Part shown: in pieces, positions 2,961-24,501 of the stretch | Position numbering within the stretch: position 1 is the first letter of the stretch | Layout: every line of letters begins with the position of its first letter | Virus record (IMG/VR): IMGVR_UViG_3300030419_002355 | Location: 1 to 24,902 of that record | DNA: 24,902 nucleotides | Strand: one strand, 5' to 3' | From: a virus | The notes under the pieces: generated by a model | What the model was told of the DNA's origin: nothing | The model's database searches: none | The model's input: only the letters and a program-made list of their open reading frames with translations | Translations under genes and position numbers: made by a program

Positions 2961-5012
2961 TTAGCTAGCCTTATACATGTAAGCCCACTTAGATGTAGCT
3001 CCGTCGATTAAATCGAGGAATCCAATTCTTTGAGATGCAACAAGCACTCTTCTTTGGTTTGCTACTTCGTAGTCTGATTCAACAGTCATACCTCTAAGTC
3101 TAGGTACTACATAGTTTCTTGGGTTAACAGCGATTGCTGCAAACTTACTAACTGCAGGTGTAGCAAATTCGTCACATAATAGTACTCTTGAACCGAATAC
3201 TTGACCAATTTCACCTTTCAGTTTAGTTGCCATGTCGCCAACTAAGTTAGCATCTTGGAACTCAGAATCTTCTAGTAAGTTATAGTAAACTGTTTGTGAA
3301 ACAATATAAACTACTTCACTTGGGTTTACACCATATTTACCCATGTTCTTTCTCAACGCTAATAATTCAGCTGCTGTAACAGTATCACTTGCAAATGCAG
3401 TTGATGACTGTGTATAGTCTGAATCATTTCTTGCTAAGTGTAAAAGACCTTCAAAAGAAGCTCCGCCAGTACCGAAGGCACCATCAGCGTCATCACCAGC
3501 TAGGATAGCATTTTCTACTGCTCTAGCATGTGAACGAATCATGGATTCTCTAATTAAAGGTAGAATCGGCATGATTGCATCTTCTTCAGTCTCGTTACCT
3601 AAGTAAGATTGTGAGATAAGTTTTTTGGTTGAAAGAGTTCTTTCAGTAAGGTCTATACCACCATATGCTGAGCCATAAGTGTCACCTCTCTCGGCTAAGT
3701 TACCGTGAGGGCTAGAACCTGTAGCTGTTTGGTTGCCAGTAAACTCGGCATAACCACTATCTGGTAGGATAGGAATTATCATATTAGCTGCATTCATAGG
3801 AATTTCTCTAAATAGAGGTGCTAATACTAACTCATTCTGAATGTCTCTTTCAATGTTAGTTGAAACAACTTGCTCAAAGTCTGCTGAAGAAACGCCAACA
3901 CCTGAATGTGCGTTAACTTTTTCCATTACACCTTTAGCATAGTCAGTATCCCAACCTTTACCAGTTGCAAGACCAGCAAATTTTGCGTCAACTATATCGT
4001 TTTCGAAAGCTTTCTTCCAGTCACCTTGACCCTGTCTGTCTGAGAAAATTCTTTTTGATTCTCTGATATTCATGATTTCTTCAGATTTTTCCACTAGTTG
4101 AGCTTCTAACTCTTTAACTACTGTCTCTAAATCTTCATGTTTCTCATTGACTCTTTTCTCAACATCTTCTACGAGTCTTTCGGCGCCTGATAATCCAACT
4201 TGAACGATTTTCTTCTGTTCTTCCTGTTTAGCTTCTTGAGCAGCCTTTTCTTCAGCTTCTACTTCTGCTGCTTTTTCAGCGGCTTCAGCTTCTACTTTTT
4301 CTTGTGCTGCTTTTTGCTCTGCTTGTTTCATAGCAATAGAAGTTGCAGTTTTTTCCGCTACATCTTTCGCAAATGATTCTAAGTCAAAGCTTTCTGCTTC
4401 AGGAGATAGTTTTTCTTCTGACATATCAGTCTCCATTAATGAGGACTTCTCCTCGCTTGGCTGCTCAATTTTAACAGCGTCTGCTGCTGCAGTTGAGTTA
4501 GCCTTTACAAATTCACGCTTGAATTGATTGTATTCTTCCATACTATCAAATGACTTTGCTACAGAGAAAGTTGCTCCCTGATTGCAAGGTACTGATACTA
4601 CAGATACTTCAAATAATTCTGCGTCCTTGATTTTATATCCGTCAGTTTCTTTCATATAATCAGCGTCCTTGACCTTGAAACCAACGGAAAAGGCTCCAAG
4701 AACGCCATCTTTAATTAAGTCGGTTACTTCACCAGCAGCTTTAGATATACGCGCTGTAATATCTAGTCCGCCTTCTGTAACCTCTAAATCTTTTGCTCTA
4801 CCTATAGGTCTGTCATAATTATGATTGAACAAAATAATTGGATTATTTTTAAAGTTATTTAATCCGCCTGATTTTGTCCAAGCATCTGGTTCTATTATAT
4901 CTCCAGCTCTATCTAGTGCATTTGTACTTGCAGAACCTTTAATATCTAGTCCACCATCATCAGTTTCTATAGATTTAAAAGTATTAGTCCAGTGAAAAAT
5001 TTTCTCACTCAT
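2961..5012 (-). CDS. fused prohead protease - scaffold - HK97-type major capsid protein
   Basis: One 683-residue frame carries three parts. Residues 1-155 are an HK97-type prohead protease (U35 family): NHNYDRPIG holds candidate catalytic His64, GAFSVGF holds Ser109, and the family element ELFEVSVVSVPCNQGA is at 132-147. Residues 195-320 form an Ala/Glu/Lys-rich coiled coil, equivalent to the delta/scaffold domain. Residues 325-683 are the HK97 gp5-like shell protein. A cleavage point near 320-345 would release the mature shell subunit. Protease and capsid are separate genes in HK97, but fusions are known. Two in-frame ATGs at 4436 and 4424 have Shine-Dalgarno-like sequences and could give a protease-free scaffold-capsid product. 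The first codon overlaps the preceding small gene by 8 bases. Confidence 0.9.
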   Translation of the reverse strand: MSEKIFHWTNTFKSIETDDGGLDIKGSASTNALDRAGDIIEPDAWTKSGGLNNFKNNPIILFNHNYDRPIGRAKDLEVTEGGLDITARISKAAGEVTDLIKDGVLGAFSVGFKVKDADYMKETDGYKIKDAELFEVSVVSVPCNQGATFSVAKSFDSMEEYNQFKREFVKANSTAAADAVKIEQPSEEKSSLMETDMSEEKLSPEAESFDLESFAKDVAEKTATSIAMKQAEQKAAQEKVEAEAAEKAAEVEAEEKAAQEAKQEEQKKIVQVGLSGAERLVEDVEKRVNEKHEDLETVVKELEAQLVEKSEEIMNIRESKRIFSDRQGQGDWKKAFENDIVDAKFAGLATGKGWDTDYAKGVMEKVNAHSGVGVSSADFEQVVSTNIERDIQNELVLAPLFREIPMNAANMIIPILPDSGYAEFTGNQTATGSSPHGNLAERGDTYGSAYGGIDLTERTLSTKKLISQSYLGNETEEDAIMPILPLIRESMIRSHARAVENAILAGDDADGAFGTGGASFEGLLHLARNDSDYTQSSTAFASDTVTAAELLALRKNMGKYGVNPSEVVYIVSQTVYYNLLEDSEFQDANLVGDMATKLKGEIGQVFGSRVLLCDEFATPAVSKFAAIAVNPRNYVVPRLRGMTVESDYEVANQRRVLVASQRIGFLDLIDGATSKWAYMYKAS

Positions 5013-6918: not shown

Positions 6919-8220
6919 CTAGAAAGTAACAGCACTTGTTTCGAACGAATATAACGCATAACGAAGGGCATCTGCCATGTGCGATGCATAGTTATGTTTG
7001 GGTTTTTCTTTTAATAAATTAGGGTTGGGGTCCCACTGATATTGGTCAAGGCAAATTAAACTTTCAGCGCATTTCTGATGAACGATTAATTTATCATTAT
7101 CTATAATACCCCCTACATGTCCAATACCATCTAGTACAGATTTCTTTGCGTTAAGAGTACTAATATCATAATTCTGTGCAAAGTCAAATCTGGTTTGTTG
7201 AGCTGCCGAATCAATATAAATATAATCAATATCCCATTTATCAATTAATTTTCTAATCTCTATTGCGTGTTGCTCGGTAGTTCGTTCTGAATTAAGGTAC
7301 TCGTCTAGAAGATAAAATACTTCTTTATCCCAATCGTACCCTATTACACAAAATGCTGTTGGGTCTTTGTACCCTACATCCATTCCTGCAAAAACATCCA
7401 TTTTGCTAGTTTCTATTTCGGATAAGTCTGCTATACATTCTTCGTGATTAAATGCCCATACTTGTCCTTCATAAACATTAAAGTCTGCCATATATTCCTG
7501 ATTGAATTCTGCTTCTGACATAGTTTTCTTTGCTTCTGCAATATCAGTCTCGGAAAGTCTTGGGTTTTCATGGTAGGTTGCTCGAACAGATGCCCACTCT
7601 GGATATTCTCCTGAGAAGCCTCTTTGCCAAAATTCAGCAAACCAATTATTTCTACCTCGTGGAGTAGATATAAAAAGTGCTTTTGAATTTTCTTTATCTA
7701 GGGTCGGACGGAGAGCCACATTGAAAGCATCTTTTCCGTCCACCAACGCAGCTTCGTCAAAGATGATGAGATCATAGGATCGGCCCACAACAGAATCGAC
7801 CTGATTAACCGAGCCCATGCGGATTGTAGAGTGGTTCGAAAGTTCAATAACTTTATCTTTAGCATTGTCTCTTAATACCTCTAAATCAAAATGCTTAATC
7901 AGTTGTCTTTGTAAATCAAATGATATTTGTGAAAGTGAGTAATTTGGTGACATCAGTAGTACATTACAGTTGGGAACTAGAGTGACTAACTGACCTATTA
8001 TATTTGCTATATAAGTTTTTCCTTGTCTTCTGGAAACGGCGGCAGTAATAAAACGATATTTAGGGTTATTTATTGCGTTTATAATCGCATTCTGGCTAGT
8101 ATTAGGATTAATGCCTAATAAATCCATATAACCTTCGATGGGGAGTTTGATGAATCTTCTGTCATCAAATTTCATTAATCCATCGGATAAAATATCCTTT
8201 CTGCTAACTTCTATACTCAA
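6919..8220 (-). CDS. terL: terminase large subunit
   Basis: The 433-residue protein has all landmarks of a packaging ATPase-nuclease. Walker A is SRRQGKT at 63-69 and Walker B is LIIFDE at 151-156. A coupling motif STP lies at 185-187. The RNase H-like nuclease carries acidic residues Asp281 (GMDVGY), Asp337 (IYIDS) and Asp417 (HMADALRYA). It pumps DNA into the prohead and cuts the concatemer. Length is near the family norm. The start overlaps the 76-residue upstream gene as ATGA. The small subunit candidate lies far away at 18502-18963. Confidence 0.95.
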   Translation of the reverse strand: MSIEVSRKDILSDGLMKFDDRRFIKLPIEGYMDLLGINPNTSQNAIINAINNPKYRFITAAVSRRQGKTYIANIIGQLVTLVPNCNVLLMSPNYSLSQISFDLQRQLIKHFDLEVLRDNAKDKVIELSNHSTIRMGSVNQVDSVVGRSYDLIIFDEAALVDGKDAFNVALRPTLDKENSKALFISTPRGRNNWFAEFWQRGFSGEYPEWASVRATYHENPRLSETDIAEAKKTMSEAEFNQEYMADFNVYEGQVWAFNHEECIADLSEIETSKMDVFAGMDVGYKDPTAFCVIGYDWDKEVFYLLDEYLNSERTTEQHAIEIRKLIDKWDIDYIYIDSAAQQTRFDFAQNYDISTLNAKKSVLDGIGHVGGIIDNDKLIVHQKCAESLICLDQYQWDPNPNLLKEKPKHNYASHMADALRYALYSFETSAVTF

Positions 8221-10799: not shown

Positions 10800-10828
10800 A
10801 TTATATCAAAGTCTGGACCGAATGTCAA
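10800..10828 (-). promoter_or_regulatory. consensus sigma-70 promoter
   Basis: TTGACA, a 17-base spacer and TATAAT on the minus strand match consensus fully. It begins just past the cyclase stop codon and drives the holin-like gene and downstream packaging genes, giving this segment transcription independent of the accessory cassette. Confidence 0.85.
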
Positions 10829-10831
10829 GTA

Positions 10832-12622
10832 CTATTTTCGTATGGTATAGATTTTGACAGGTTCAGACTTACCTTTTACAGTTACCTCGTCTAAAAAGTC
10901 GTAGTCATAACCATCAACTAAACTGTACTCAGAAATAATTAATCCTGTATCGTACTCTTTACAACTGCTCTCTAGCCTAGCAGCCAAATTGACGCTATCA
11001 CCAAGCACACTGTAATCGAAACGACTATTACTACCAAAGTTTCCGACGACACAGAGTCCGGTATTGATACCTGCACCTGTGTGAATCTCGTCCAGTCCTT
11101 CTTCTTTAAGTTTTTCATTTAATTCCTCCAACGATTCCCTCATTTCTAGAACCGCTTTAGTTGCATTCTCTTTATGATTCTCATCTTCAAGAGGCGCGCC
11201 CCAAAACGCCATAATACAGTCTCCCATATATTTATCTATTGTACCCCCGTGTTTCATAATTATCTCAGTCTGATTAGTTAAAAAACGATTAATCAGATTA
11301 GTAAGTCCTTGTGGATTCTTCTGGTATTTTTCAGAGATGGGGGTAAATCCTCGTATGTCAGAAAATAAGAAAGTTAGTTGTTTCGTCGACCCACCCAATT
11401 CAAGTAAATTTGGGTTTTTTTGTAATTTTTCAACCAAGTCCCTAGATACATATGTCCCAAATTGTTGTTTAATTTGTAAACGCATGAAATACTGCTGGAG
11501 AAAATTCCTGAAAGTTACAATACTCCAAAACAAAATCGAGATGATTACGATTCCAGAGATGTCCAATAAATAGGAAGATTGATAAGCATACCAGGTACCA
11601 TAAGATAGTCCACCAATAATTGCTAATAGAGTAGGTAAACTAACATATATCCAACCTGCAGTAATTAGAATAAGGAGCAAAGCCAGGACTGCAGCTCCTA
11701 GCTCCGCTGAAACAGCCCAATCTGGTGTAGAAGGGGCTGTACCTTCTATAAGGTTATGTAGTACATTCGCCTGTATCTCATGAGGATATTTTGGTCCTGC
11801 AGGTGTCGGTACTGGGTTAACTACTCCCTCTGCTGTTACTCCTATTATAATAAAAGGAGCTTCAATAGGGTTTCTTAAAAATTCTGCTGCTGTTTGTTTG
11901 TAGAACTTTGTATTCCAGTTAAGATATATTCTCCCATTTGGGTCTGTATTCATTTCTGGATATGCTGGTACTCTAACCCATTCTACTCCTGTTTCATTAG
12001 TACGAATTTGATAACTAATATCATCTACTGCAAGTCTAAGCATTTCTAGTGCAAAACTTGGATATAGTTTATCTTGAACATTAACTACTAGAGGTATTCT
12101 TCTGGTTACTCCATCGATTTCGGGACTTGCTGTAATTAATCCAACCCCATCAGCTGTTGTAGAGAGCATGGGTTCTTGTTTTAAAAGTCCAGGATAGTTA
12201 AAAAGCCACGGAAGTGGGTCTTCTCCAATTTGGGCAGTCCCTATGTGAGGGCCTTGTGTAGTTACTTGACTTGAAGCTGCGTATGCAAGTACTGCTTTTC
12301 TTTCCATAAAAGCATCTGCTAATTCAATATCGTTTTCAGCTCCTCGAATGTCTGGATTAGGCATTAGTACCGTAATACCTGAAACCCCGTGTGTCCTTTC
12401 TACTAGAGTTGCATATAATTCTCTAGGTAATGGATATCCGTTATATGCATCAATGATTTCCTCATCTAAATCAATGATTAAGATATTCTCGTTTTGAACT
12501 TCCTCAGTATTCATTATTAAATAATCAAATACTTTTAATTCTAGTATTTTAAAAGGATAGGGATTCCAGGCCAGTAATAAAACGAAGCCTATTGCTAGTA
12601 GTGCGTTAGTTAGTGTTTTCAA
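10832..12622 (-). CDS. CHASE2-domain class III adenylate/guanylate cyclase
   Basis: The 596-residue membrane protein has a signal anchor (1-20), a periplasmic CHASE2 sensor (about 25-300), two to three membrane spans (about 303-370) and a cytoplasmic class III cyclase domain (about 412-596). Catalytic features are intact: metal-binding Asp422 (FSDIRGFT) and Asp468 (DKYMGD), purine-contacting Lys464 with Ser538, and transition-state Asn545/Arg549 in GDSVNLAARLES. The Lys/Ser pair favours ATP as substrate, so cAMP is the likely product. Translation probably starts at TTG 12622, preceded by AAGGA at good spacing, right after the curlin gene stop. CHASE2 cyclases are typical of bacteria; one in a phage late operon is unusual. 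Next to FecR and curli genes it may signal secretion or surface state. Confidence 0.92.
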   Translation of the reverse strand: MKTLTNALLAIGFVLLLAWNPYPFKILELKVFDYLIMNTEEVQNENILIIDLDEEIIDAYNGYPLPRELYATLVERTHGVSGITVLMPNPDIRGAENDIELADAFMERKAVLAYAASSQVTTQGPHIGTAQIGEDPLPWLFNYPGLLKQEPMLSTTADGVGLITASPEIDGVTRRIPLVVNVQDKLYPSFALEMLRLAVDDISYQIRTNETGVEWVRVPAYPEMNTDPNGRIYLNWNTKFYKQTAAEFLRNPIEAPFIIIGVTAEGVVNPVPTPAGPKYPHEIQANVLHNLIEGTAPSTPDWAVSAELGAAVLALLLILITAGWIYVSLPTLLAIIGGLSYGTWYAYQSSYLLDISGIVIISILFWSIVTFRNFLQQYFMRLQIKQQFGTYVSRDLVEKLQKNPNLLELGGSTKQLTFLFSDIRGFTPISEKYQKNPQGLTNLINRFLTNQTEIIMKHGGTIDKYMGDCIMAFWGAPLEDENHKENATKAVLEMRESLEELNEKLKEEGLDEIHTGAGINTGLCVVGNFGSNSRFDYSVLGDSVNLAARLESSCKEYDTGLIISEYSLVDGYDYDFLDEVTVKGKSEPVKIYTIRK

Positions 12623-13435
12623 TTAATTTCCTTGTGTTACAGTAATATTACAACCGCCAGTAGTTATACAGTTCTGGCTTAGTGTGTAGTTTTGAGTAGT
12701 GTTTCCTCTTTGTAATAAGTCTAAAATAGTCGGCTGACTACCATTAAGTGTGATGGTGGCATTGTGTTCGCCATTGTTTTTCTGACTAATACTGACTTCA
12801 TTGTCGTCATTATAAATATAAAGTGTTAATTCTTTGTCTCCGTTCTGCATTTGCTTTACAAAAACATCATTATTATCTGCATATATAAACGCTTTAATAC
12901 TGTGGTTTATAGAACTGCTATCTTGTTTTTGACTTCCTTTGAATTCATTATCATCTCCATGAATATCTAACTGTACGAAGTTTCCCCCAGGCTCAGTTCC
13001 ATCATAATTCCAATTTGGAGTTAAACTATTACCATTTTCATATCCTTGACCAAAAACAACCTTATTTTCGTCTCCCCAAACATGCATTTGGAAGTCGTTT
13101 TCATTACAACTAGAAGCAGAGCATTTTTGTTTAATTGTCAGTTCATTACCTAAACCATCTACATCACCACCCCAATTATAACCAGACCCCCATATATCAG
13201 TATACCCAATATAATTATTATTTCCATATTGGAATAAATCTAAAGTATTATCATCATGATTGAAGGAGAATCTTATTAAATTATTATGTCCTACTTGGTC
13301 AATTTCAAGACTAAAATTGTCTCCACTTTGTACTTGGTCAATATGTACATGGTTATCGTCTGCTTGTAGCTGTTCGCCAAAAACGAATATTACTACAATA
13401 AATAATATTAAAGCACTTTTTAAAAATTTAATCAT
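12623..13435 (-). CDS. secreted curlin-repeat protein (CsgA/CsgB-like)
   Basis: The 270-residue protein begins with a signal peptide (IKFLKSALILFIVVIFVFG, cleaved near EQLQA). It then has repeated short strands with the curlin pattern IxQxGxxN: HIDQVQSGDNF, EIDQVGHNNL, DLFQYGNNNY, later VSISQKNNGEHN and LDLLQRGNTTQN. Such repeats stack into a beta solenoid and polymerise as amyloid in E. coli curli. Repeats here are separated by irregular acidic segments with Cys pairs. The ATG at 13435 is chosen because the signal peptide begins there and it overlaps the upstream stop as TAATG. It probably leaves the cell through the CsgG pore encoded nearby. Confidence 0.82.
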   Translation of the reverse strand: MIKFLKSALILFIVVIFVFGEQLQADDNHVHIDQVQSGDNFSLEIDQVGHNNLIRFSFNHDDNTLDLFQYGNNNYIGYTDIWGSGYNWGGDVDGLGNELTIKQKCSASSCNENDFQMHVWGDENKVVFGQGYENGNSLTPNWNYDGTEPGGNFVQLDIHGDDNEFKGSQKQDSSSINHSIKAFIYADNNDVFVKQMQNGDKELTLYIYNDDNEVSISQKNNGEHNATITLNGSQPTILDLLQRGNTTQNYTLSQNCITTGGCNITVTQGN

Positions 13436-13599
13436 TATGTTATCCAACAGACTGGGTATACACACCAATAAGGATTAGCAAATCCTAAAAACCATAGAAT
13501 TAGTATCCATAGCGGTATCTGTATCCAAGTCTTCCCTTTAGACCACTCTCTAAATCTTAGAGCATATGGAGCTAGTTTATTAAATAATTTTATTACCAT
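13435..13599 (-). CDS. 54-residue membrane protein
   Basis: The peptide has an N-terminal amphipathic basic part (VIKLFNKLAPYALRFREW) and one hydrophobic Trp-rich span (IQIPLWILILWFLGFA), then a short Cys-containing tail (YWCVYPVCWIT). The stop overlaps the curlin start (TAATG) and the start overlaps the upstream stop by 7 bases, so it is embedded in the operon. It may assist export of the neighbouring curlins. Family not recognised. Confidence 0.65.
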   Translation of the reverse strand: MVIKLFNKLAPYALRFREWSKGKTWIQIPLWILILWFLGFANPYWCVYPVCWIT

Positions 13600-13892
13600 T
13601 TTACTTTATTTGCCCAATAAGCTGCGGACATTTTTCCTTTCTTTATGTTCTTTGCGTGACGAGCCTTAAATGAGGCTCTACGCTTTTTCTGGGCGGCTGA
13701 TTTAGGAGACTTTCCTGCTCCCTTGACTCCTTGTTGTCCAAATCTAATAGTCTTTGTTCTTTTGCCTACTTTTGCGACTACTACATGAGATTTAGTTTTA
13801 TGTTTTGGAGTTCTTTTTGGTTTATTATATCCAGATACTCCAGCTCTCTTAAGTTTACCGTTTCTTTTCTTTCTAGCTCTTTTTCTTGCCAT
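13593..13892 (-). CDS. conserved-type basic phage protein (DUF5872-like)
   Basis: The 99-residue protein is Lys/Arg-rich. It carries the ordered elements GYNKPKRTPKHKTKSHVVV, KTIRFGQQGVKG, RRASFKARHAKNIKKGKMS and AAYWANKVKW. I associate this pattern with a small basic family in marine phages, from memory as DUF5872; the name needs checking. The ATG at 13892 is preferred to one at 13937, since GGGG lies upstream and the longer start would run inside the 28-residue gene. Nucleic acid binding is likely from charge. Confidence 0.75.
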   Translation of the reverse strand: MARKRARKKRNGKLKRAGVSGYNKPKRTPKHKTKSHVVVAKVGKRTKTIRFGQQGVKGAGKSPKSAAQKKRRASFKARHAKNIKKGKMSAAYWANKVKW

Positions 13893-13959
13893 GTTTCTTT
13901 CCCCTTTTCTTCTTAGGTCGTCCTCGACGCTTTCCATATGTTCCTTTACCTTTTGGCAT
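13873..13959 (-). CDS. 28-residue AT-hook-like peptide
   Basis: The peptide is MPKGKGTYGKRRGRPKKKRG followed by a Lys-rich tail. RRGRPKKKRG matches the AT-hook core (RGRP flanked by basic residues), which inserts in the minor groove of AT-rich DNA. A perfect AGGAGG lies four bases before the ATG, one of the strongest ribosome sites in the window. It overlaps the next gene by 20 bases. DNA binding is inferred from the motif. Confidence 0.65.
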   Translation of the reverse strand: MPKGKGTYGKRRGRPKKKRGKKHGKKKS

Positions 13960-13967
13960 ATTTCCTC

Positions 13968-15083
13968 CTAATTAGTCTGTCGTATGATTATACTAATAGA
14001 CTCTCCATCACCTGTTGTGATTATACTTTCTTTTTCATCAGTTATAGTCTGAATTCGAGCATTGGCATCTATAGGCAGTTTAATACTGATTATACCAGTA
14101 ACTTGTCTATAAAACCAAATTTGTCCACTATCATCAATTATAGTATTATATTGAGTTTGTGGGTCAAGTCCTGGTTTTGTTCCTTCAATAGAAACTTGTT
14201 CAAAACCACCACTATCTCTGTTTCTATCAAGTAAGTCTGATTCCTCTATGATTTCTAGTAAGTCTTGTAAAAAGTCTACATCTAATAAATCAATGTCTAA
14301 TTCTGAGAAACTCCAATCTTTATCTTCTTCTAAGTAATCAGTTTCTAATTCATTAAATTCTAGAAAATCTGCAGTTAGTATATTACTTGCACTATTTTCA
14401 GTTCTTACTTCCTCTACTGCTGTTTGTATTTCTGCTGGAGGAGATACAATAAATAAGTTATCAATTTGTGCTACAGTAACATCAGTTAATTGTACAGGTT
14501 TTACAGGGGGACTTGATATAGTTGATACCATAGTAGCCTGAAACGCCTGATTTAAAGTAACTGTACCGCCTTCATTTGTTACTGTTATCTCTCCAGAAGC
14601 GTCTCCATTTGCATCAGGTAAGAGAATTATTAGTGACCTTCCTAATTCATCAATTGTAGTAGTAAAGTCTGTTCCTCTAATTCCTATTTGTGCAGTAGGA
14701 GTTTCGATAGTAATATTTGCTTTGTTCATGTTAGCAGACATACCAGAGGTAAATCGTGCTGTTCCCATAGCAAACTTCATTACCATCTTTGATTTAGATG
14801 GATTAGGGTCATAAATTACTTCGTCAATTAAAACCCTGCTATGTTCGGTTAAACGGAGATTTGAGTCATCAAGAAATTCTACTTTCATTCGTCCGTTGCC
14901 TGTGTTAAGCAAGTCATATAATAATACATCTTGGTCAACTGCGGCAACGAACTCCTGATTATTTCGTGTAAGTGCGCCTTTACCCGTCTGTTCCGTAATA
15001 TCACCAATAGGATTGGCTAATGCTAAACTAGGTACTAGACTAATCGCTAGTATCTTTTTGATTAATTGTAATCGTCGCATCAT
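13968..15083 (-). CDS. secreted FecR-domain protein
   Basis: The protein of about 371 residues begins with a basic signal peptide (RRLQLIKKILAISLVPSLALA). A FecR domain follows: TEQTGKGALTRNNQ, VKVEF-like strand LDDSNLRLTEHSRVLID, the family signature TPTAQIGIRGTDF, then LITVTN-type strands. The C-terminal half is acidic with DLLDVDFL-like repeats. FecR proteins read an outer membrane receptor state and pass it to a sigma factor. A stand-alone periplasmic FecR, without an anti-sigma N-terminus, is common next to CHASE2 cyclases. The start region overlaps the upstream curlin gene by about 44 bases, with no strong ribosome site, so the exact ATG (15083 or 15080) is uncertain. Confidence 0.85.
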   Translation of the reverse strand: MMRRLQLIKKILAISLVPSLALANPIGDITEQTGKGALTRNNQEFVAAVDQDVLLYDLLNTGNGRMKVEFLDDSNLRLTEHSRVLIDEVIYDPNPSKSKMVMKFAMGTARFTSGMSANMNKANITIETPTAQIGIRGTDFTTTIDELGRSLIILLPDANGDASGEITVTNEGGTVTLNQAFQATMVSTISSPPVKPVQLTDVTVAQIDNLFIVSPPAEIQTAVEEVRTENSASNILTADFLEFNELETDYLEEDKDWSFSELDIDLLDVDFLQDLLEIIEESDLLDRNRDSGGFEQVSIEGTKPGLDPQTQYNTIIDDSGQIWFYRQVTGIISIKLPIDANARIQTITDEKESIITTGDGESISIIIRQTN

Positions 15084-15756
15084 CTGAAGTAATATCAAGA
15101 TTAATCACACCTGAACAAGAAGTAACACCCTGAGGGCAGCTTCCTGACTGCTGTATAATATCAATATCTGCATCGTCCCCGTTAAACTCTGCTATTAGGA
15201 TTTGGTCCTCATCTTTTTGTTGAGTATTAATGTTATTACCGTCACCAGTAATATCCCATTCCCATTTAACACTATCTGCATCTACTAATGTAGTAAATAT
15301 ATTAGTACCTCCAGTAAGAGTTAAATCATAGTTAAAGCTTTCGGAAGATTGGTTATACCCCAAATCAAAGTCCCACTCATTTGAATCCCCTGTAACATCT
15401 AAATCTAAGTCCAGACTATCTGCAGAGCCAGTATATCCAATGTTCCAATCAAATATGTTACTGTCCCCTGTAAATACCATGTCTATATTAGCTGAGTCTA
15501 ATACGATAGGTCCAAATAATTGGTTACTATTTCCTATTTGGTCTAAATTAAAGGTTATGTCACTACCTGTGATTTCCATATCAGTAGCACAAGCTCCTGA
15601 TGCAATAGTTCCACAAAATTTGTTTCCATAACCTATCTGGTCAATTGTCAAAGTCAAAGTATCACCCTCTTGTTCAAGAAAAATCTCGTTATCGGTTGAT
15701 TGTGCGAAAATTGACACAGAAAGGAAAAGTGCAAATATAGTTAAATATTTATTCAC
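15040..15756 (-). CDS. secreted curlin-like repeat protein 2
   Basis: The 238-residue protein has a signal peptide (NKYLTIFALFLSVSIFAQS). Curlin-like strands follow: LTIDQIGYGNKF, FNLDQIGNSNQL, NINTQQKDEDQ, IDIIQQSG and ITINQKD. Between them are Asp/Ser-rich units of the form DLDVTGDSNEWDFDLGY. GTG at 15756 is chosen: GGGAG lies six bases upstream and the signal peptide begins there. It overlaps the csgG stop by 8 bases. Being directly after csgG, it is the most likely secreted substrate. Its Cys pairs could form disulphides. It is longer and more acidic than E. coli CsgA. Confidence 0.8.
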   Translation of the reverse strand: MNKYLTIFALFLSVSIFAQSTDNEIFLEQEGDTLTLTIDQIGYGNKFCGTIASGACATDMEITGSDITFNLDQIGNSNQLFGPIVLDSANIDMVFTGDSNIFDWNIGYTGSADSLDLDLDVTGDSNEWDFDLGYNQSSESFNYDLTLTGGTNIFTTLVDADSVKWEWDITGDGNNINTQQKDEDQILIAEFNGDDADIDIIQQSGSCPQGVTSCSGVINLDITSDDATITINQKDTSD

Positions 15757-16618
15757 TATTTTCTCCCTTATGCTCTTGGATATTCCAAAAGCCTCTTTCG
15801 TCACCTTGATAAATAAAGGCGACAACTGCAGCTTCAATCGCTGCACGGGTTGCAACAGTAACGCTTTCGTTCTCCGCAACTCCGTCTTCTATTTCTACTA
15901 GTTGAGTATCCATATCGACAAATTTAAATACATCGAAACCTCCACCAACTGATAGAATAGTCTTCTTGGCCTGAACATTTAACAAAATTTCTCCTGTTAA
16001 AGTGCTTATGCCCCTTAGACTTACTGTGACCACATCTCGTCTATATTGAGTTGACCTGCCCACCCCTAAAGTCCTTGCTCCTCGTCCGCCAGATTCTATA
16101 TTAGAGTCATATCCTATGATACCACCTTCTATAATTATTCCTGCGAAGAGTAGTGGCTGTATGCCTTTGTTCTCTGTTTCATCGCTTTCCTCTCTAGTAC
16201 TTCTAACAATTTGTCTTTCTCGTACTAGATGGTCTATTTGAGCTCTTTCAACTACACGGAACCATGTTCCATTTCCTGCAGTTTTTAAAGCATCAATAAG
16301 TAATTCTGTTCCACCTTGGGTTACTGCAGTACTAAAGTCTGCTAAATTATCTCTACGCTTTCTTTGTCCAGTTAAATCATTAAATCCATAAACTGCAACT
16401 ATTGGCATTTTTTCCGCTGGGGGTAAATTTAATAGTCTTTCGTAAGTAGGAAGTTCAACTATCTCTGGTCCTTCAACACAGGTAAATGGAATTGCCTTTT
16501 CAACCATAGTTTTTACATCAACTATGTCAGGGTCACAATTAGTGTCGTCCCTATCCATTCTAGGAACGCTTGCACACCCCGCTATTAAAAATACTAGCAA
16601 AATGGCTAGTAGCCTCAT
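15749..16618 (-). CDS. csgG: CsgG-family curli secretion lipoprotein
   Basis: The 289-residue outer membrane lipoprotein has a lipobox (LIAGC, lipidated Cys15). CsgG signatures are clear: ADFSTAVTQGGTELLIDAL, WFRVVERAQIDHLVRERQIVR, IIIEGGIIGYDSN, YRRDVVTVSLRGISTLTGEILLNV and TRAAIEAAVVAF. In E. coli nine copies form a pore for curli subunits, with a constriction of Tyr51, Asn55 and Phe56. Here Phe56 is kept (Phe95), but the Tyr and Asn positions align with acidic Asp90 and Asp94, so the channel may suit a different substrate. A strong GGAGG lies six bases before the ATG, which overlaps the csgF stop (TAATG). Confidence 0.92.
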   Translation of the reverse strand: MRLLAILLVFLIAGCASVPRMDRDDTNCDPDIVDVKTMVEKAIPFTCVEGPEIVELPTYERLLNLPPAEKMPIVAVYGFNDLTGQRKRRDNLADFSTAVTQGGTELLIDALKTAGNGTWFRVVERAQIDHLVRERQIVRSTREESDETENKGIQPLLFAGIIIEGGIIGYDSNIESGGRGARTLGVGRSTQYRRDVVTVSLRGISTLTGEILLNVQAKKTILSVGGGFDVFKFVDMDTQLVEIEDGVAENESVTVATRAAIEAAVVAFIYQGDERGFWNIQEHKGENSE

Positions 16619-17100
16619 TAGAATCCTCCAGTACCGATTGGGATTGTGATTACTGTTTCACTTCCCTCGCTGTCAGTTATAGTCATGATTATAACTTCTA
16701 CACATACTCCATCTTCCCCGCATTGCTCGGTTCTTTGATAGGTAATAGTATTCCCTTCTAGGGTAAATGAGCCTGAATAACTAGACTCTTCATTTCCGAA
16801 CATATTATCTACTAATTGTTTTGATAATTGTGCGTATATTCTTGATTCTAAGTTTCGAATGAACTTAGCTAAAGTTGTATTTTCTAATGCTCTCTGTTCA
16901 GCTTTTAGTGCTGCTTCGATGTCATCTTGTAATTTATCTCGTCTTGATTTTTCTTGGTTTTCAATCGTTAAATAGTGAGCAGAAGTACCTACTCCACTAA
17001 AAGACGGATTTTTGAATTCGTGTGTAATTTCGTCGCTTAAGACTAATGGTGTAAAGAAGAAGATAATTGCTATCCATCTACTTGTCTCTTTTCTTTTCAT
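16618..17100 (-). CDS. csgF: CsgF-like curli assembly factor
   Basis: The 160-residue protein has a signal peptide (about 1-22). Its mature N-terminus, HEFKNPSFSGVG, matches the CsgF element FRNPNFGGN that threads into the CsgG pore. A helical part (LAKFIRNLESRIYAQLSKQLVDNM) and C-terminal strands (FTLEGNTITYQ, EVIIMTITD, TVITIPIGTGGF) follow, as in CsgF. It caps CsgG and links secretion to nucleation on the cell surface. It immediately precedes csgG. There is no CsgE or CsgB-type dedicated nucleator in the window. Confidence 0.85.
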   Translation of the reverse strand: MKRKETSRWIAIIFFFTPLVLSDEITHEFKNPSFSGVGTSAHYLTIENQEKSRRDKLQDDIEAALKAEQRALENTTLAKFIRNLESRIYAQLSKQLVDNMFGNEESSYSGSFTLEGNTITYQRTEQCGEDGVCVEVIIMTITDSEGSETVITIPIGTGGF

Positions 17101-17329
17101 TTTCTTTCATCTGTAAAACGGTGTTTACCTTTTGCTGTAAACGAATCATATCGTTGTCGAGCATTCGTATCTGGTCGATTAGTTTTATCAGTGTTAAATG
17201 CATGCTTTTAATTGTCGGTCCAATTACTTTTGTAAATGTGTACCATACATAGTAAACAAAATACCCCAATCCCACCATAGCAACAATCGGAAATCCAAAC
17301 TGTTGTATGGCATCAATCACGCCTGACAT
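17078..17329 (-). CDS. small membrane protein, BhlA/holin-like (paralogue 1)
   Basis: The 83-residue protein has one N-terminal membrane span (QFGFPIVAMVGLGYFVYYVW) and an amphipathic/coiled C-terminal half (LIDQIRMLDNDMIRLQQKV). It resembles BhlA/UviB holin-like proteins. It shares a common pattern with the next gene (PI-TM-...-M-ND-IRL), so the pair is a tandem duplication. It overlaps csgF by 23 bases. It may be a holin component or an accessory of the export system; position favours neither. Confidence 0.65.
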   Translation of the reverse strand: MSGVIDAIQQFGFPIVAMVGLGYFVYYVWYTFTKVIGPTIKSMHLTLIKLIDQIRMLDNDMIRLQQKVNTVLQMKENEKKRDK

Positions 17330-17606
17330 CTAACCTACCGTCCTCGATAAAATTTTCAGCTCTCGCAATTCTGTCTAAATCTGGTGTAAGTTCGAGAGCT
17401 GCGCTTACACTAGTGTCTAATCTAATTATGTCATTGTTCATAGTTTTCACACGAGTGATAAGACTATTCGCAAATCCTTCAAGTGTCTTTACTTGCCCAA
17501 CTACTCCACTCATTATTTGCTTCATAATTGTAAAAATAAAAACACCTGCTACCAGGGCTCCAGCTATAGGGGCACCTACTTGTGCTATTAAGTTCCAAAT
17601 ATCCAT
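17313..17606 (-). CDS. small membrane protein, BhlA/holin-like (paralogue 2)
   Basis: The 97-residue protein has an N-terminal span (QVGAPIAGALVAGVFIFTIM) and a coiled segment (ITRVKTMNNDIIRLDTSVSAAL). It aligns with its downstream neighbour along both parts, with MNNDIIRL matching LDNDMIRL. It starts at TAATG with iscA and overlaps paralogue 1 by 17 bases. Two similar one-span proteins may form a hetero-oligomer, as holin/antiholin pairs do; this is inference. Confidence 0.65.
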   Translation of the reverse strand: MDIWNLIAQVGAPIAGALVAGVFIFTIMKQIMSGVVGQVKTLEGFANSLITRVKTMNNDIIRLDTSVSAALELTPDLDRIARAENFIEDGRLDVRRD

Positions 17607-17923
17607 TAGAATCCTACACTGACACCACAGCCACAGCTTGCCTGTTCTTGTGGATTAATAAACTTAAACTGTTCATTAACTCCATCAACAACCCAATCTA
17701 TTGTCATACCTTGTATATAAGGGCCTGACACCGGGTCTATATTAAATTTAATTTCGCCATAATCGATAACAAAATCATTTTCTTTTGGTTCTTTACAGTA
17801 GTCAAATATATACTCATATCCAGCACAGCCACCGCCAGTTAATCCTATTCTAAAAGCATAGGTTTTCTCACGGGAGGCTCTTTCTACTAATTTGGAATAA
17901 GCTTCATTTGTTACTTCAATCAT
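17606..17923 (-). CDS. A-type iron-sulfur carrier protein (IscA/ErpA family)
   Basis: The 105-residue protein has the three conserved Cys of A-type carriers: Cys33 in TGGGCAGYEY and Cys97/Cys99 in SCGCG near the C-terminus. The fold strands (FRIGLTGGG, FNIDPVSGPYIQGMTIDWV) are intact. It accepts Fe-S clusters from IscU or passes them to apo-proteins. The ATG at 17923 is used because the upstream TTG would lie deep in iscU. It overlaps iscU by 8 bases, as in a real Isc operon. Cyanophages carry A-type proteins, but pairing with IscU is rarer. Confidence 0.9.
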   Translation of the reverse strand: MIEVTNEAYSKLVERASREKTYAFRIGLTGGGCAGYEYIFDYCKEPKENDFVIDYGEIKFNIDPVSGPYIQGMTIDWVVDGVNEQFKFINPQEQASCGCGVSVGF

Positions 17924-18317
17924 TCTGTTTTCGTTCCCAATCAAGTATTGCTTCTCTTATAGCTGATTCAGCTAGTACTGAGCAGTGCAATTTAATTGGA
18001 GGCAATTGCAATGCTTCTGCAATTTCTTTGTCTTTTATTTCTCTAGCCTCTGCTAAAGTTCTGCCTTTTAGCATATCGACGAACATTGTGGAACTCGCGA
18101 TTGCTGAACCACAACCATATGTTTTGAACTTAACATCTTCTATAATTTCGTCTTTGTTAAGTTTAATCTGAAGTCTCATGACATCACCACACGCTGGTGC
18201 TCCTACTTGTCCAGTAGCTACAGCGGGGTCTTTAGGGTCAAATCTACCTACGGAAAATTGTCCGGGAGCGTTTAGTACTTCTTCGAATCTTTTTACGACC
18301 TCTTTGCTATATGCCAT
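17916..18317 (-). CDS. iscU: IscU Fe-S cluster scaffold
   Basis: The 133-residue scaffold has all ligand residues: Cys43 with Asp45 (GAPACGDV), Cys69 (TYGCGSAIASS), His111 and Cys112 (LHCSVLAE). The LPPIK at 105-109 matches the LPPVK motif recognised by the HscA chaperone. It begins MAYSKEVVKRFE. It should build a cluster from host IscS sulfur and hand it to the IscA-like protein next door. Length is typical. No IscS, HscA or HscB is in this window, so host partners would be needed. Confidence 0.93.
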   Translation of the reverse strand: MAYSKEVVKRFEEVLNAPGQFSVGRFDPKDPAVATGQVGAPACGDVMRLQIKLNKDEIIEDVKFKTYGCGSAIASSTMFVDMLKGRTLAEAREIKDKEIAEALQLPPIKLHCSVLAESAIREAILDWERKQND

Positions 18318-18505
18318 TAAACCTTCTTAATTCCTAGGACATAGTTCTCAGCAGCACTTTCTGCATAGTCTTCACTATGTCCGATATATTTCTCTTCTCC
18401 GATTTTTTCGCCATGTTTATTGTAAAATATTGCTCCAAAATCTCCTTTGTCTATAAATGTTTCTGCGACTAAGTCTCCTTCTCTAAAGCTGCTAAGTATT
18501 GTCAT
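18317..18505 (-). CDS. hypothetical small protein
   Basis: The 62-residue protein has a strand-rich part (GDLVAETFIDKGDFGAIFYN, EEKYIGHSEDYAES) and an end ENYVLGIKKV. Similar small proteins occur near structural genes of marine phages, but I know no function. It overlaps the TerS-like gene as ATGA and abuts iscU directly. Confidence 0.65.
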   Translation of the reverse strand: MTILSSFREGDLVAETFIDKGDFGAIFYNKHGEKIGEEKYIGHSEDYAESAAENYVLGIKKV

Positions 18506-18963
18506 TCTTCTTTTAGTAATTTTTCCATGAGTTTGCCATAATTACCTTGTCCAAAAGGTAACTCTGAATTAATCTGGACATTATTCATGGTTTTAACATT
18601 AACCCCTTTAGCTTTTTCTAATTCAGCCATAGCCTTAATCTCGTCCATACGCATCTTATGTGCTAGTGCATATAAGTCTGCCAGGTCTTTATTAGTGTAT
18701 ATTTGACTTTCTTCTGCTTCTTCTAATTTCTTGTCAATAATTTCATCGAGTGCAGCAGATAGTTTAAATCTGTTACGATAACCAGTATCTAAATAAACCT
18801 GGTCTATGTACGCTTTGATTTCCCGTTTTCCTAAGTATTCTTGTACGGTATTTTCGTCAACACCCATCTTCGTGCATACCGCTGGGATATTCCCTAGTTC
18901 CAAATATGCGTTGGCTATTTCTAATCCTTCGGGACTCATTTTTGTCGCAATTTCATTCTTCAT
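18502..18963 (-). CDS. terminase small subunit-like protein
   Basis: The 153-residue protein has an N-terminal helix-turn-helix-like part (LEIANAYLELGNIPAVCTKMGVDENTVQEYL) and then a helical oligomer-like part (YIDQVYLDTGYRNRFKLSA, ALDEIIDKKLEEAEES). The C-terminus is QINSELPFGQGNYGKLMEKLL. This order fits small terminase subunits that bind packaging sites. It is the first gene of the leftward late operon, 10 kb from terL. The ATG lies six bases after TATAAT, so the message may be leaderless. The TerS call is by fold and context. Confidence 0.65.
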   Translation of the reverse strand: MKNEIATKMSPEGLEIANAYLELGNIPAVCTKMGVDENTVQEYLGKREIKAYIDQVYLDTGYRNRFKLSAALDEIIDKKLEEAEESQIYTNKDLADLYALAHKMRMDEIKAMAELEKAKGVNVKTMNNVQINSELPFGQGNYGKLMEKLLKEE

Positions 18964-18969
18964 ATGTGA

Positions 18970-18998
18970 ATTATATCAAATTTTATATCTGATGTCAA
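18970..18998 (-). promoter_or_regulatory. consensus late promoter
   Basis: TTGACA, 17-base spacer and TATAAT match consensus exactly, preceded by TTCAAAAATAATTC. It drives the long leftward operon beginning with the TerS-like gene. TATAAT is only six bases from the ATG, so transcription would begin at or next to the start codon. Confidence 0.88.
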
Positions 18999-19508: not shown

Positions 19509-19588
19509 TGGGTATTGAATGGGATTTACTAATTGGAATAATCGCTTTCAATACCTTAATTCTATATTTAATTTGGGGGGCAAGATGA
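19508..19588 (+). CDS. 26-residue transmembrane micropeptide
   Basis: The peptide MGIEWDLLIGIIAFNTLILY plus LIWGAR is almost wholly one membrane span. It starts in TAATG with the previous gene and ends in ATGA with the HAD gene, so the frame is fixed by both sides. The tight coupling supports a translated unit, though it may mainly link translation. Confidence 0.5.
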   Translation: MGIEWDLLIGIIAFNTLILYLIWGAR

Positions 19589-20073
19589 TAACAAGACTTT
19601 ACAATCCTAATCCTATAATCGCTATCTATGATTTAGATAACACAATCATTGATAGCGAACATAGGCAACTTTCAAATGATGATGGCTCAATCAATCTTGA
19701 ACATTGGTTTGAGAATTGCACAGAAGAAAAAATAAATAAAGATACATTACTGCCTTTATATAATAAATTGGTTAAGCAATATAAAGAGGGCAACACAATC
19801 ATTCTATGCACAGCTAGAAACATGGGTAAATATGATTATGAATATCTTTATAAAAATAATATTTGGCACGATAAAATCATATCAAGACCTAAAGACTGCA
19901 CAACTAAAGATTATATTTTAAAGGCACAACAATTAAAATATCTATTCAATCTAAAACAATATGCCAAGATACAAAAAGAATTTTATGACGATAATACCGA
20001 TAACCTAAAAGCATTATTCAAATTAGGGGCAAAGGTATTCAATGCCATAGAATTAAATGAGGAAATGAAATGA
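19585..20073 (+). CDS. HAD-superfamily phosphatase-like protein
   Basis: The 162-residue protein has HAD motifs in order: motif I YDLDNT with nucleophile Asp16 and Asp18, motif II Thr76 in IILCTAR, and motif IV acidic pair in YDDN (Asp135/Asp136). Such enzymes remove phosphate, for example 3'-phosphates from DNA or RNA (T4 PseT-like), or nucleotides. The ATG at 19585 follows GGGGGG at the right distance. Its end overlaps the PPK2 gene by 4 bases, so the two are probably made together. Substrate not predictable. Confidence 0.82.
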   Translation: MITRLYNPNPIIAIYDLDNTIIDSEHRQLSNDDGSINLEHWFENCTEEKINKDTLLPLYNKLVKQYKEGNTIILCTARNMGKYDYEYLYKNNIWHDKIISRPKDCTTKDYILKAQQLKYLFNLKQYAKIQKEFYDDNTDNLKALFKLGAKVFNAIELNEEMK

Positions 20074-20708
20074 ATGAATTAGAAATACAACAGGCACGAC
20101 TAAACCGAATATTAAAAAAGGATTTTGGAAAGGTTGCCGTTATCCTAGAGGGTAGAGATACTGCTGGAAAAACAGGAACAATCAGAACGCTAACACACTA
20201 TATGCCAATAGATAAATTCTCAATTCATCTATCCACTAAACCAAGCCAAGCAACAATGAATAATTGGTTTAGATTTTGGACAAATAAATTAGAAATGGCT
20301 AATAATAAAATGGTTATCTTTGATAGGTCATGGTATTCAAGGGGTTTAGTCCAAGCAATTAATGGGTGGTGTTCAGAGGAACAATATGCACACTTCATGG
20401 AAAATGTGCAATCATGGGAAGAAAAGAAAGAAGATATAAGATACATTAAATTTTGGTTATCCATATCAGAAGAAACACAAAAAAGACTAATTGAGAAAAG
20501 GGAAAATTCACCATTAACAAATTGGAAACTATCACCGAATGACAGACTTGCTCTATCCTACTTTGACAAAATGACTATCTACAAAGAAAGGGTAATTACT
20601 TCCACTAAATATTGGAATGTAATTGACTACAACGACAAAAAGAAAGGGCAACTAGAATTAATCACAACTTTAAATAACATATTAGAAAAGGGGTTAAAAA
20701 ATGACTAA
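20070..20708 (+). CDS. polyphosphate kinase 2 (PPK2) family protein
   Basis: The 212-residue protein matches the PPK2 P-loop fold. Walker A is LEGRDTAGKTG (GRD 28-30, Lys34). Walker B FDRSWYSRG is at 84-92. Lid elements follow: IKFWLSISEETQKRLIEKR and NWKLSPNDRLALSYFDKM, with the family triad WKLSPxD. PPK2 enzymes transfer phosphate between polyphosphate and nucleotides (ADP/GDP to ATP/GTP, or AMP to ADP). GKTG replaces the more usual GKGG. The protein is at the short end of the family but has all core elements. A PPK2 in a phage early operon is unusual and could raise NTP supply from host polyphosphate. It overlaps genes on both sides. Confidence 0.88.
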   Translation: MNELEIQQARLNRILKKDFGKVAVILEGRDTAGKTGTIRTLTHYMPIDKFSIHLSTKPSQATMNNWFRFWTNKLEMANNKMVIFDRSWYSRGLVQAINGWCSEEQYAHFMENVQSWEEKKEDIRYIKFWLSISEETQKRLIEKRENSPLTNWKLSPNDRLALSYFDKMTIYKERVITSTKYWNVIDYNDKKKGQLELITTLNNILEKGLKND

Positions 20709-23197: not shown

Positions 23198-23226
23198 ATT
23201 ATAGCAGAATTTTTCTCGTTTGTCAA
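23198..23226 (-). promoter_or_regulatory. consensus promoter for RNA B
   Basis: TTGACA, 17 bases, TATAAT on the minus strand, preceded by an A/T-rich TTTTTTCAAAAAATCTC. No gene lies downstream before the convergent operon's terminator. Confidence 0.85.
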
Positions 23227-23260
23227 GAGATTTTTTGAAAAAAATTGAATTATTTTCAGA

Positions 23261-23326
23261 TAAAAAAAATCCGACATTTGTTGCTTCAGACTTTTCCCTC
23301 ATCATACTACACAACATCTGTCGGAT
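23261..23326 (-). terminator. leftward intrinsic terminator
   Basis: Read on the minus strand, ATCCGACA and TGTCGGAT form an 8-bp stem extended inward by TGTTG/CAACA across a 2-base mismatch, with a 28-base loop. Eight Ts follow. It ends the transcript of the 49-residue gene and separates it from promoter B. Confidence 0.85.
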
Positions 23327-23413
23327 TAATTCGCTTTCGCTTCGTCAGTTTAGACACTTGTCGCGGGTGTGGTCAGAACTTTGAGTTATAAACGAGTTCT
23401 TGGCGTTCAGAAT

Positions 23414-23429
23414 TGTTCCATGTGGAACT
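23414..23429. promoter_or_regulatory. parS-like site 2
   Basis: TGTTCCATGTGGAACT shares 15 of 16 bases with site 1 at 19169, including the same TG centre where classical parS has CG. It touches the stop codon of the 49-residue gene. The region 23327-23413 otherwise holds no gene I can support. Confidence 0.55.
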
Positions 23430-23578
23430 TAAAGACTTAGCAATTTCTTGATGGTCACTTTGTTGCTTCTCTCTAGGCTATCAAGTTCGCCTTTGTTTAG
23501 AGAGAATTTTTCTTCAACTTGTCTGACCAATGCTACTTTAGTTAATTCAACTTTTTTAGTTTCTTTCACTTTTTGCAT
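23429..23578 (-). CDS. 49-residue protein in origin-like region
   Basis: The protein is MQKVKETKKVELTKVALVRQ, then a short helical part (EEKFSLNKGELDSLERSN) and TIKKLLSL. The SLNKGELDSL segment looks like a small helical turn of a DNA-binding protein, but this is a weak hint. AAGGAG nine bases upstream supports ATG 23578. An in-frame ATG at 23599 directly after TATAAT could give a leaderless longer form. It is the only gene in a 1.4-kb noncoding region, so a regulator of replication or the local RNAs is a fair guess. Confidence 0.55.
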   Translation of the reverse strand: MQKVKETKKVELTKVALVRQVEEKFSLNKGELDSLERSNKVTIKKLLSL

Positions 23579-23606
23579 TTTTTCGTTCTCCTTAATCATG
23601 TATATA

Positions 23607-23634
23607 ATTATACTGATTTTTTGTCCCATGTCAA
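23607..23634 (-). promoter_or_regulatory. promoter of the 49-residue gene
   Basis: TTGACA, a 16-base spacer and TATAAT. The ATG at 23599 lies seven bases after TATAAT. Confidence 0.8.
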
Positions 23635-23662
23635 TAGGAAAATCACATTTTTTGAAAAAAAC

Positions 23663-23682
23663 TTATCCACAGGTTATCCACA
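23663..23682. other. two DnaA boxes (right part of origin-like region)
   Basis: Exact TTATCCACA boxes at 23663-23671 and 23674-23682 (plus strand) are 11 bases apart. They lie between two tandem promoters that read toward the 49-residue gene, so DnaA could also control that gene. Confidence 0.7.
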
Positions 23683-23696
23683 GCCAAATCGCGCCG

Positions 23697-23725
23697 ATTA
23701 TACCACACTCTCCTAGATTTGTCAA
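23697..23725 (-). promoter_or_regulatory. second consensus promoter upstream of the 49-residue gene
   Basis: TTGACA, 17 bases, TATAAT on the minus strand. Its transcript would cross the two DnaA boxes before reaching the 49-residue gene. The adjacent 23726-23825 is AT-rich and holds no gene I can support. Confidence 0.82.
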
Positions 23726-23825
23726 GAGAAAATTTAAATTTTTTTCAACTTTTTATAAACTCGTGTCTTTTATCTATTTGATACCTTAAGTTATCGCTTT
23801 TTGCCCTATTTTTTCGCATTTTTCC

Positions 23826-23858
23826 TTAAAAATACCCGTATAAAGCGCTTTTGCGGGT
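23826..23858 (-). terminator. candidate terminator of RNA A
   Basis: On the minus strand ACCCG and CGGGT pair around an inner AAA-GCGC-TTT, followed by ATTTTT. It lies about 180 bases from the predicted start of RNA A. Confidence 0.5.
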
Positions 23859-23865
23859 GTTTGGG

Positions 23866-23976
23866 GCGCTTTGCGCCGACCAAAGTACAGTTTCGAAACG
23901 AAATATTTTACACCCGCGCCGAAGTGCGAATTCGAAGTACTAAAACGAAGTACCAAATCGAAGTGCTAAAGTGATG
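23866..23976. repeat. repeat module A (paralogue of 23004-23093)
   Basis: It has the same order as module B: GC hairpin GGCGC-TTT-GCGCC, AGTACAGTTTCGAAACGAA, ACA, CGCGCC, AGTGC and AAGTGATG. The 15-mer CAGTTTCGAAACGAA at 23888-23902 is identical to 23029-23043. Confidence 0.65.
23920..23971. repeat. four 13-bp iterons
   Basis: CGAAGTRC-NAAWN units repeat with an exact 13-base period; GAAGTRC starts at 23921, 23934, 23947 and 23960. Direct repeats next to DnaA boxes are typical of Rep-bound iterons, but no Rep gene is seen here. Confidence 0.75.
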
Positions 23977-24014
23977 AAAAACACCCGCAGCGGGTATATA
24001 ATTATCTTAATCAT

Positions 24015-24043
24015 ATTATATCAGAAGTTTTTGCGGGTGTCAA
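24015..24043 (-). promoter_or_regulatory. consensus promoter for RNA A
   Basis: TTGACA, 17 bases, TATAAT on the minus strand. The octamer ACACCCGC overlaps the -35 element. Confidence 0.83.
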
Positions 24044-24047
24044 GAAG

Positions 24048-24077
24048 AAATTTGAAGTAATTTGAAGAAATTTGCGT
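24048..24077. repeat. short AT-rich tandem repeat
   Basis: AATTTGAAGW repeats about three times with a 10-base period. It is AT-rich and upstream of the RNA A promoter, so it may act as an UP element or an unwinding element. The rest of 24078-24169 has no gene I can support. Confidence 0.45.
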
Positions 24078-24169
24078 TTTTGCGAAGGTTTGACACGAAG
24101 ATGTGAGGTTTCGCGTCCCGCCCCCCGAAGTTAGACTGTGATTTTTTCCTAGAAAATTCGAATTTTTTC

Positions 24170-24197
24170 TTGACATTTATGAAAAAAGCATTATAAT
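24170..24197 (+). promoter_or_regulatory. promoter for the 24206 gene
   Basis: TTGACA, 16-base spacer, TATAAT, then eight bases to the ATG at 24206. It has the same TTTTTTCTTGACA context as the other promoters. Confidence 0.85.
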
Positions 24198-24205
24198 ATA
24201 ACTAT

Positions 24206-24454: not shown

Positions 24455-24472
24455 AATAATTCAATCTTTTTC

Positions 24473-24501
24473 TTGACAAAACAAGTCAAAGCATATATAA
24501 T
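24473..24501 (+). promoter_or_regulatory. consensus promoter for the last gene
   Basis: TTGACA, 17 bases, TATAAT on the plus strand. Transcription would start near 24508. Confidence 0.87.

Follow-up and report, generated by a model that had tools for sequence, protein, structure and literature searches.

A predicted sensor adenylyl cyclase in the curli module of a marine T5-like phage

What use would a phage have for a membrane-bound sensor cyclase? The question is raised by a gene in the IMG/VR virus record IMGVR_UViG_3300030419_002355, which we analyzed over its whole 24.9 kb (24,902 nucleotides, hereafter the window; it is probably a fragment). The original prediction, made from the letters alone, was that a phage here encodes a CHASE2 cyclase with all catalytic residues intact, an enzyme that might redirect host metabolism, motility or biofilm by way of cAMP and might be limited in its expression by a TTG start codon. 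The carrier is indeed a phage, as the window has genes for terminase subunits, portal, capsid, connector and tail. The features of the locus are collected in Table 1.

Table 1. Features of the cyclase gene and its surroundings, in order of transcription (window coordinates; TM, transmembrane; AF2, AlphaFold2).
Feature	Coordinates	Strand	Details and basis
Perfect sigma-70 promoter ahead of the terminase small subunit gene and the block	18970..18998	-	
Terminase small subunit, upstream boundary	18502..18963	-	phrog_3802
IscU/NifU-type scaffold, same presumed transcription unit as the curli block	17916..18317	-	PF01592
IscA-type Fe-S protein, same presumed transcription unit as the curli block	17606..17923	-	PF01521
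Small TM and coil protein, 97 aa, relative of HTVC008M gp11	17313..17606	-	phrog_18771
Small TM and coil protein, 83 aa, relative of HTVC008M gp12	17078..17329	-	Sequence, relatives
CsgF	16618..17100	-	PF10614, 7.5e-14
CsgG, outer-membrane curli export pore	15749..16618	-	PF03783, 8.8e-47
First curlin-like protein, GTG start	15040..15756	-	
FecR-domain protein, exported (signal peptide); C-terminal tail curlin-like, ...ISIIIRQTN	13968..15083	-	PF04773, 2.9e-9; alignment, tail test, model
Small basic protein within the block; position differs among relatives	13593..13937	-	phrog_7595
Second curlin-repeat protein, ending ...CNITVTQGN	12623..13435	-	PF07012, 4.9e-5
AAGGA ribosome-binding site, 6 nt upstream of the TTG start	12629..12633	-	Sequence
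CHASE2 sensor and class III nucleotidyl cyclase	10832..12622	-	596 aa, TTG start
CHASE2 domain, residues 14-318	11669..12583	-	Pfam PF05226, E 1.7e-32; AF2 pLDDT 90
Class III cyclase catalytic domain, residues 413-594	10841..11386	-	Pfam PF00211 Guanylate_cyc, E 5e-21
Perfect sigma-70 promoter directly past the cyclase, opening the next unit	10800..10828	-	
Terminase large subunit, T5-like, downstream boundary	6919..8220	-	

Pfam and a check of each position confirmed a CHASE2 cyclase with all six catalytic residues exactly as they had been numbered. Both Pfam matches clear their cut-offs by a wide margin (113 bits vs. 26 for CHASE2), and the CHASE2 span takes in the first transmembrane helix, the periplasmic sensor and the start of the second transmembrane helix. 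The catalytic domain holds two metal-binding aspartates (D422 and D468), the transition-state pair of Asn (N545) and Arg (R549), and K464 with S538, which form an adenylyl-type purine pair (Lys with the Asp/Thr/Ser class). Nearly the whole protein is matched by PHROG 35576 (function unknown; E 1.5e-159), thus phage relatives were already present in that collection. Structure prediction of the sensor, proposed at the outset as a check, gave a mixed alpha/beta CHASE2 domain; the AlphaFold2 model of the protein (56 sequences, pLDDT 90) runs from one transmembrane helix through this domain to three transmembrane helices and the cyclase domain, with helices at residues 2-19, 303-321, 325-348 and 356-388. 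From the model we infer a membrane orientation in which CHASE2 would be extracytoplasmic and the catalytic domain cytosolic.

The modeled catalytic domain matches CyaC of S. platensis (Z 26.5, 1.7 A, 184 residues), CyaB of P. aeruginosa (Z 25.9) and the guanylyl cyclase Cya2 (Z 25.4). CyaC and CyaB resemble the phage cyclase in catalytic fold, at 35-39% identity, and differ from it in their sensor domains. The presence of Cya2 among the best structural matches would fit cGMP, or some other cyclic nucleotide, as the product instead of cAMP; however, CyaC and CyaB match at least equally well, and in class III cyclases a Lys and Ser purine pair is of adenylyl type while guanylyl enzymes have Glu/Cys. 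The residues K464 and S538 therefore argue for ATP as the presumed substrate and make a product other than cAMP improbable. We consider it very likely that the phage CHASE2 protein is an active adenylyl cyclase.

Frequent loss of catalytic residues among close relatives had been named beforehand as one of two results that would refute the prediction. Such loss is rare. All six residues are intact in 102 of the 103 distinct viral relatives that cover them, and in all 80 bacterial relatives; D422, K464, D468 and R549 are invariant across the viral relatives covering each, with a single exception each, N545 is kept and position 538 is occupied by S, T or D. The six residues are conserved far above chance. 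The sole viral relative not intact is that of the isolate Melnitz, a phage of OM43 (locus L083), in which the transition-state Asn is replaced by Ser. One further cyclase gene (L077) is frameshifted near residue 453 and is either a pseudogene or an assembly error. Median dN/dS, from about 170 non-independent pairs, is 0.13 for the whole cyclase, 0.15 for CHASE2 and approximately 0.06 for the catalytic domain, which is under strong purifying selection. The L077 frameshift and the altered Melnitz active site could be taken to mean that the cyclase arrived with a bacterial curli operon and has been kept by linkage without a function, but the intact sites (102 of 103) and low dN/dS across a deep viral tree speak against such a passenger, a reading that is already disfavored and that we consider extremely improbable.

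The suggestion that the TTG start limits expression found no support beyond the codon itself: a good AAGGA site precedes it, and relatives mostly start otherwise (ATG 82, TTG 8 and GTG 5 among 95 cyclase genes). The TTG is a local, unconserved oddity, and we dropped the idea that it serves in regulation.

The cyclase gene comes last in a minus-strand block, csgF-csgG-curlin-FecR-curlin-cyclase, placed between the genes for the terminase small and large subunits. Reading from the upstream promoter (18970-18998), the order is terminase small subunit, a short ORF, IscU, IscA, the two TM-coil proteins, CsgF, CsgG, curlin, FecR, the basic protein, curlin, cyclase and the second promoter. Perfect sigma-70 promoters number 8 in the window against 0.07 expected; beyond the two flanking the block, six more (TTGACA-N16/17-TATAAT) lie on both strands in approximately 1.3 kb at 23198-24501. 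The same gene order is found in HTVC008M, Melnitz, other viral lineages and one bacterial contig (L085). The terminase large subunit gene lies downstream on the same strand in 77 of 80 close viral relatives, and CsgG, FecR and the cyclase are all present in each of the 25 relatives that span both terminase genes. A terminase-centered scan found the cyclase on 40 contigs; 39 others ended too soon to decide, and a single T5-like contig had no cyclase in the 7.6 kb it covers upstream of the terminase. The linkage of the cyclase to the curli block in viral contigs led us to reject a stand-alone "cAMP moron", and the initial picture of a cAMP tool acting on its own gives way to that of a member of a conserved curli module. 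We hold with considerable confidence that the cyclase is a functional part of this module. A curlin-repeat protein of HTVC008M, gp18 (L082, 8667-9992), has an N-terminal PA14 domain, suggesting a fiber with a putative glycan-binding head.

The FecR protein of the block has a signal peptide (by eye) followed by the FecR domain only. Pfam and alignment found neither an N-terminal cytoplasmic anti-sigma domain nor a single transmembrane helix, an architecture that led us to reject an iron-dependent anti-sigma regulator. The modeled N-terminal domain, compared over residues 22-211, matches the periplasmic signaling domain of PupR (Z 15.7) and 5ix9, a solved "cell surface anchoring domain" (Z 11.1); a FecR profile search of solved-structure sequences gave no match. 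The protein ends, much as the neighboring curlins do, in a strand whose Gln close to the C-terminus is invariant. A [VIL]x[VIL]xQ tail ends 57 of the 58 curli-module FecRs vs. 0 of the 13 FecRs found beside CHASE2 cyclases outside curli modules; it occurs in 0.65% of other ORFs, and 43% of curlins fit the strict pattern. Because the 58 curli-module FecRs share ancestry, the count is a measure of constraint and not of independent gains. A literature search, which was not exhaustive, found no published account of this tail, which offers a concrete candidate link between fiber export and signaling.

In bacteria, 12 of 16 FecR matches near CHASE2 cyclases fall within 2 kb, a zone that makes up 26% of the searched flank (P 6e-5). 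In S. meliloti, the cyclase CyaD1 makes cAMP constitutively when CHASE2 is deleted, and the nearby SMc02177 encodes a FecR domain (PMC5498481). This clustering and the S. meliloti neighbors together make FecR a candidate periplasmic partner of CHASE2, although we infer a contact between the two from gene neighborhood only; counting against the link, SMc02177 was dispensable for perceiving the one signal tested (PMC5498481). That FecR directly regulates the cyclase is thus a tentative proposal, to which we give somewhat less than even chances.

On balance we favor the reading that the protein is an inner-membrane sensor adenylyl cyclase of the phage curli (type VIII secretion) module, reporting the state of that module; what it would report is the state of curli export, probably through periplasmic FecR. 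After infection, CsgG and CsgF would build an outer-membrane pore exporting the curlins, and the FecR-domain protein would reach the periplasm by its signal peptide, where its curlin-like C-terminal strand could let it follow the export route or dock with it. The FecR domain would then touch CHASE2 and switch the synthesis of cAMP at the start, stalling or completion of export. This cAMP would act on a host CRP-type protein where there is one, or on an unrecognized target in SAR11-like hosts. A more specific form is a secretion checkpoint, in which the curlin-tailed FecR is a CsgG client or retention plug and the CHASE2 cyclase senses occupancy and signals it by cAMP, in hosts without a recognized receptor; we consider this form doubtful, and if true it would imply a hitherto unrecognized cAMP target in infected cells.

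The terminase large subunit shares approximately 50% identity with those of T5-like phages, both Vibrio and enterobacterial. Protease and capsid protein have a gene each in T5-like phages, and the capsid ORF of the window matches both, with 35-39% identity for the major capsid protein. A related contig appears, by eye, to encode an NAD-dependent ligase split in two, as in T5. By these likenesses the carrier is a marine relative of the T5-like siphoviruses, outside the podovirus and myovirus groups described earlier. Its head protease and major capsid protein form a single 683-aa ORF (2961-5012), which is two genes in T5-like phages. Elsewhere in the window are two adjoining plus-strand genes, HAD-like (19519-20073) and polyphosphate-kinase-2-like (20070-20708), both recognized by eye without a family match.

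About 180 kb of related contigs contain no tRNA genes that might point to a host. Terminase searches at E 1e-100, run without a positive control, gave no match in 247 SAR11 and 40 SAR86 genomes. Two phage-like contigs with the curli-cyclase module, L245 (contig G446:C11) and L246 (G410:C1), lie inside two SAR11-family assemblies; the former belongs to the same T5-like lineage, with a cyclase 69% identical to that of the window. Its placement weakly suggests SAR11 as host of the T5-like phage, weakly because binned contigs can be strays and the terminase searches gave nothing further.

We examined 60 SAR11-family genomes, picked out by their match to a 16S probe sequence for SAR11; the host of HTVC008M belongs to this family. 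The cyclic-nucleotide receptor domain PF00027 is absent from 58 of them. Class III cyclase is likewise absent from 58, the only ones found being those on the phage-like contigs L245 and L246. Nor was PF00027 found in 17 phage records (some of them fragments, but including the HTVC008M and Melnitz genomes), and a receptor encoded by the phage was set aside. If the host is SAR11, the phage would be bringing cAMP signaling into cells that mostly have neither a class III cyclase nor a known receptor.

That the phage changes host cAMP is plausible. The broad effect on host metabolism and motility first envisaged would need a cAMP receptor, and it lost ground with the absence of PF00027 from the 17 phage records and from 58 of 60 genomes of the weakly supported host family. 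A general takeover of the host, in which a CRP-type regulator of the host responds to raised cAMP and shifts metabolism, motility or biofilm, with curli as one of several outputs, does agree with the intact enzyme residues, with the frequency of CRP-type regulators in bacteria (PF00027 in 10 of 14 control genomes) and with the S. meliloti CHASE2 cyclases, which work through the CRP protein Clr (PMC5498481). Against it, the cyclase travels with the curli/FecR block in viral contigs that are long enough, and the receptor domain is missing from nearly all genomes of the family to which the HTVC008M host belongs; we judge it unlikely. The making of cAMP, or the use of ATP, might instead upset a cyclic-nucleotide defense or starve the cell, which would explain phage cAMP in a host lacking a receptor. 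Yet the sensor domain and the curli linkage would be unexpected, no link to defense was found, and a pure ATP drain would leave CHASE2 unconserved, so that this reading is highly improbable.

In a maximum-likelihood tree, all viral cyclases fall on one side of a fully supported branch together with L085, their sole bacterial companion; the other bacterial sequences are on the opposite side. L085 is a contig of a Caulobacteraceae MAG (CANGEH010000001.1) with the module CsgF-CsgG-curlin-curlin-FecR-CHASE2 cyclase; the genes upstream of it read as glycosyltransferases, those downstream as a peptidase and a TonB receptor. GC content drops from 0.655 to 0.52 where the module starts, and among 299 genomes of its order only this one has a full-length curli-type FecR; possible explanations are an ancestral module that was retained, an acquired island or an error of assembly. 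In five further bacterial curli operons neither gene is a neighbor of the curli genes, thus curli in general needs neither FecR nor a CHASE2 cyclase. Two Acinetobacter "phage" matches (H7 and H8) were set aside; H7 lies in a bacterial chromosomal neighborhood (mfd, hscA, iscU) and is not a phage cyclase.

Related blocks have already been reported in other marine phages, and the window phage is therefore a new carrier and not a new system. In podoviruses and myoviruses among the pelagiphages, Wittmers et al. (2022; PMC9599517) reported curli clusters that include FecR and adenylate cyclase, with an alphaproteobacterial origin; CsgGF was also discussed, with no mention of a cyclase, by Zaragoza-Solas et al. 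(2020) and Buchholz et al. (2022). The module of Wittmers et al. (PMC9599517) has CsgF, CsgG, curlin, FecR, second curlin and adenylate cyclase in the order seen here. Its carriers are HTVC023P-type podoviruses and myoviruses, whereas ours is T5-like, with the block between the terminase genes; and it has a histidine kinase in front, where the window has only the two TM-coil proteins of about 90 aa. These two are paralogous, show no kinase domain match, and are possibly what was called "histidine kinase" (PMC9599517); they accompany the curli module in several phage lineages, and were not detected in L085 or other bacterial curli operons. The cyclases of HTVC008M (gp019) and Melnitz (gp104) are full-length relatives at 37-38% identity in the same gene order; unlike the window phage, both isolates are T4-like myoviruses, and Melnitz lacks the transition-state Asn. 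L085 shares the curli genes, FecR and CHASE2 cyclase, but on a bacterial chromosome contig and possibly by acquisition. S. meliloti CyaD1 is likewise a CHASE2 adenylyl cyclase encoded near a FecR-domain protein; its locus differs in having no curli and in encoding a CRP-type receptor (Clr) nearby. New here are a third phage lineage (T5-like) for the curli module, with a fixed insertion site, a bacterial contig sharing the phage module gene order, the catalytic-site and selection statistics, the curlin-like tail of FecR, and the receptor gap. Phages of the most abundant marine bacteria carry curli machinery; an intact sensor cyclase kept by selection within the module suggests that the module is regulated and is more than a pore.
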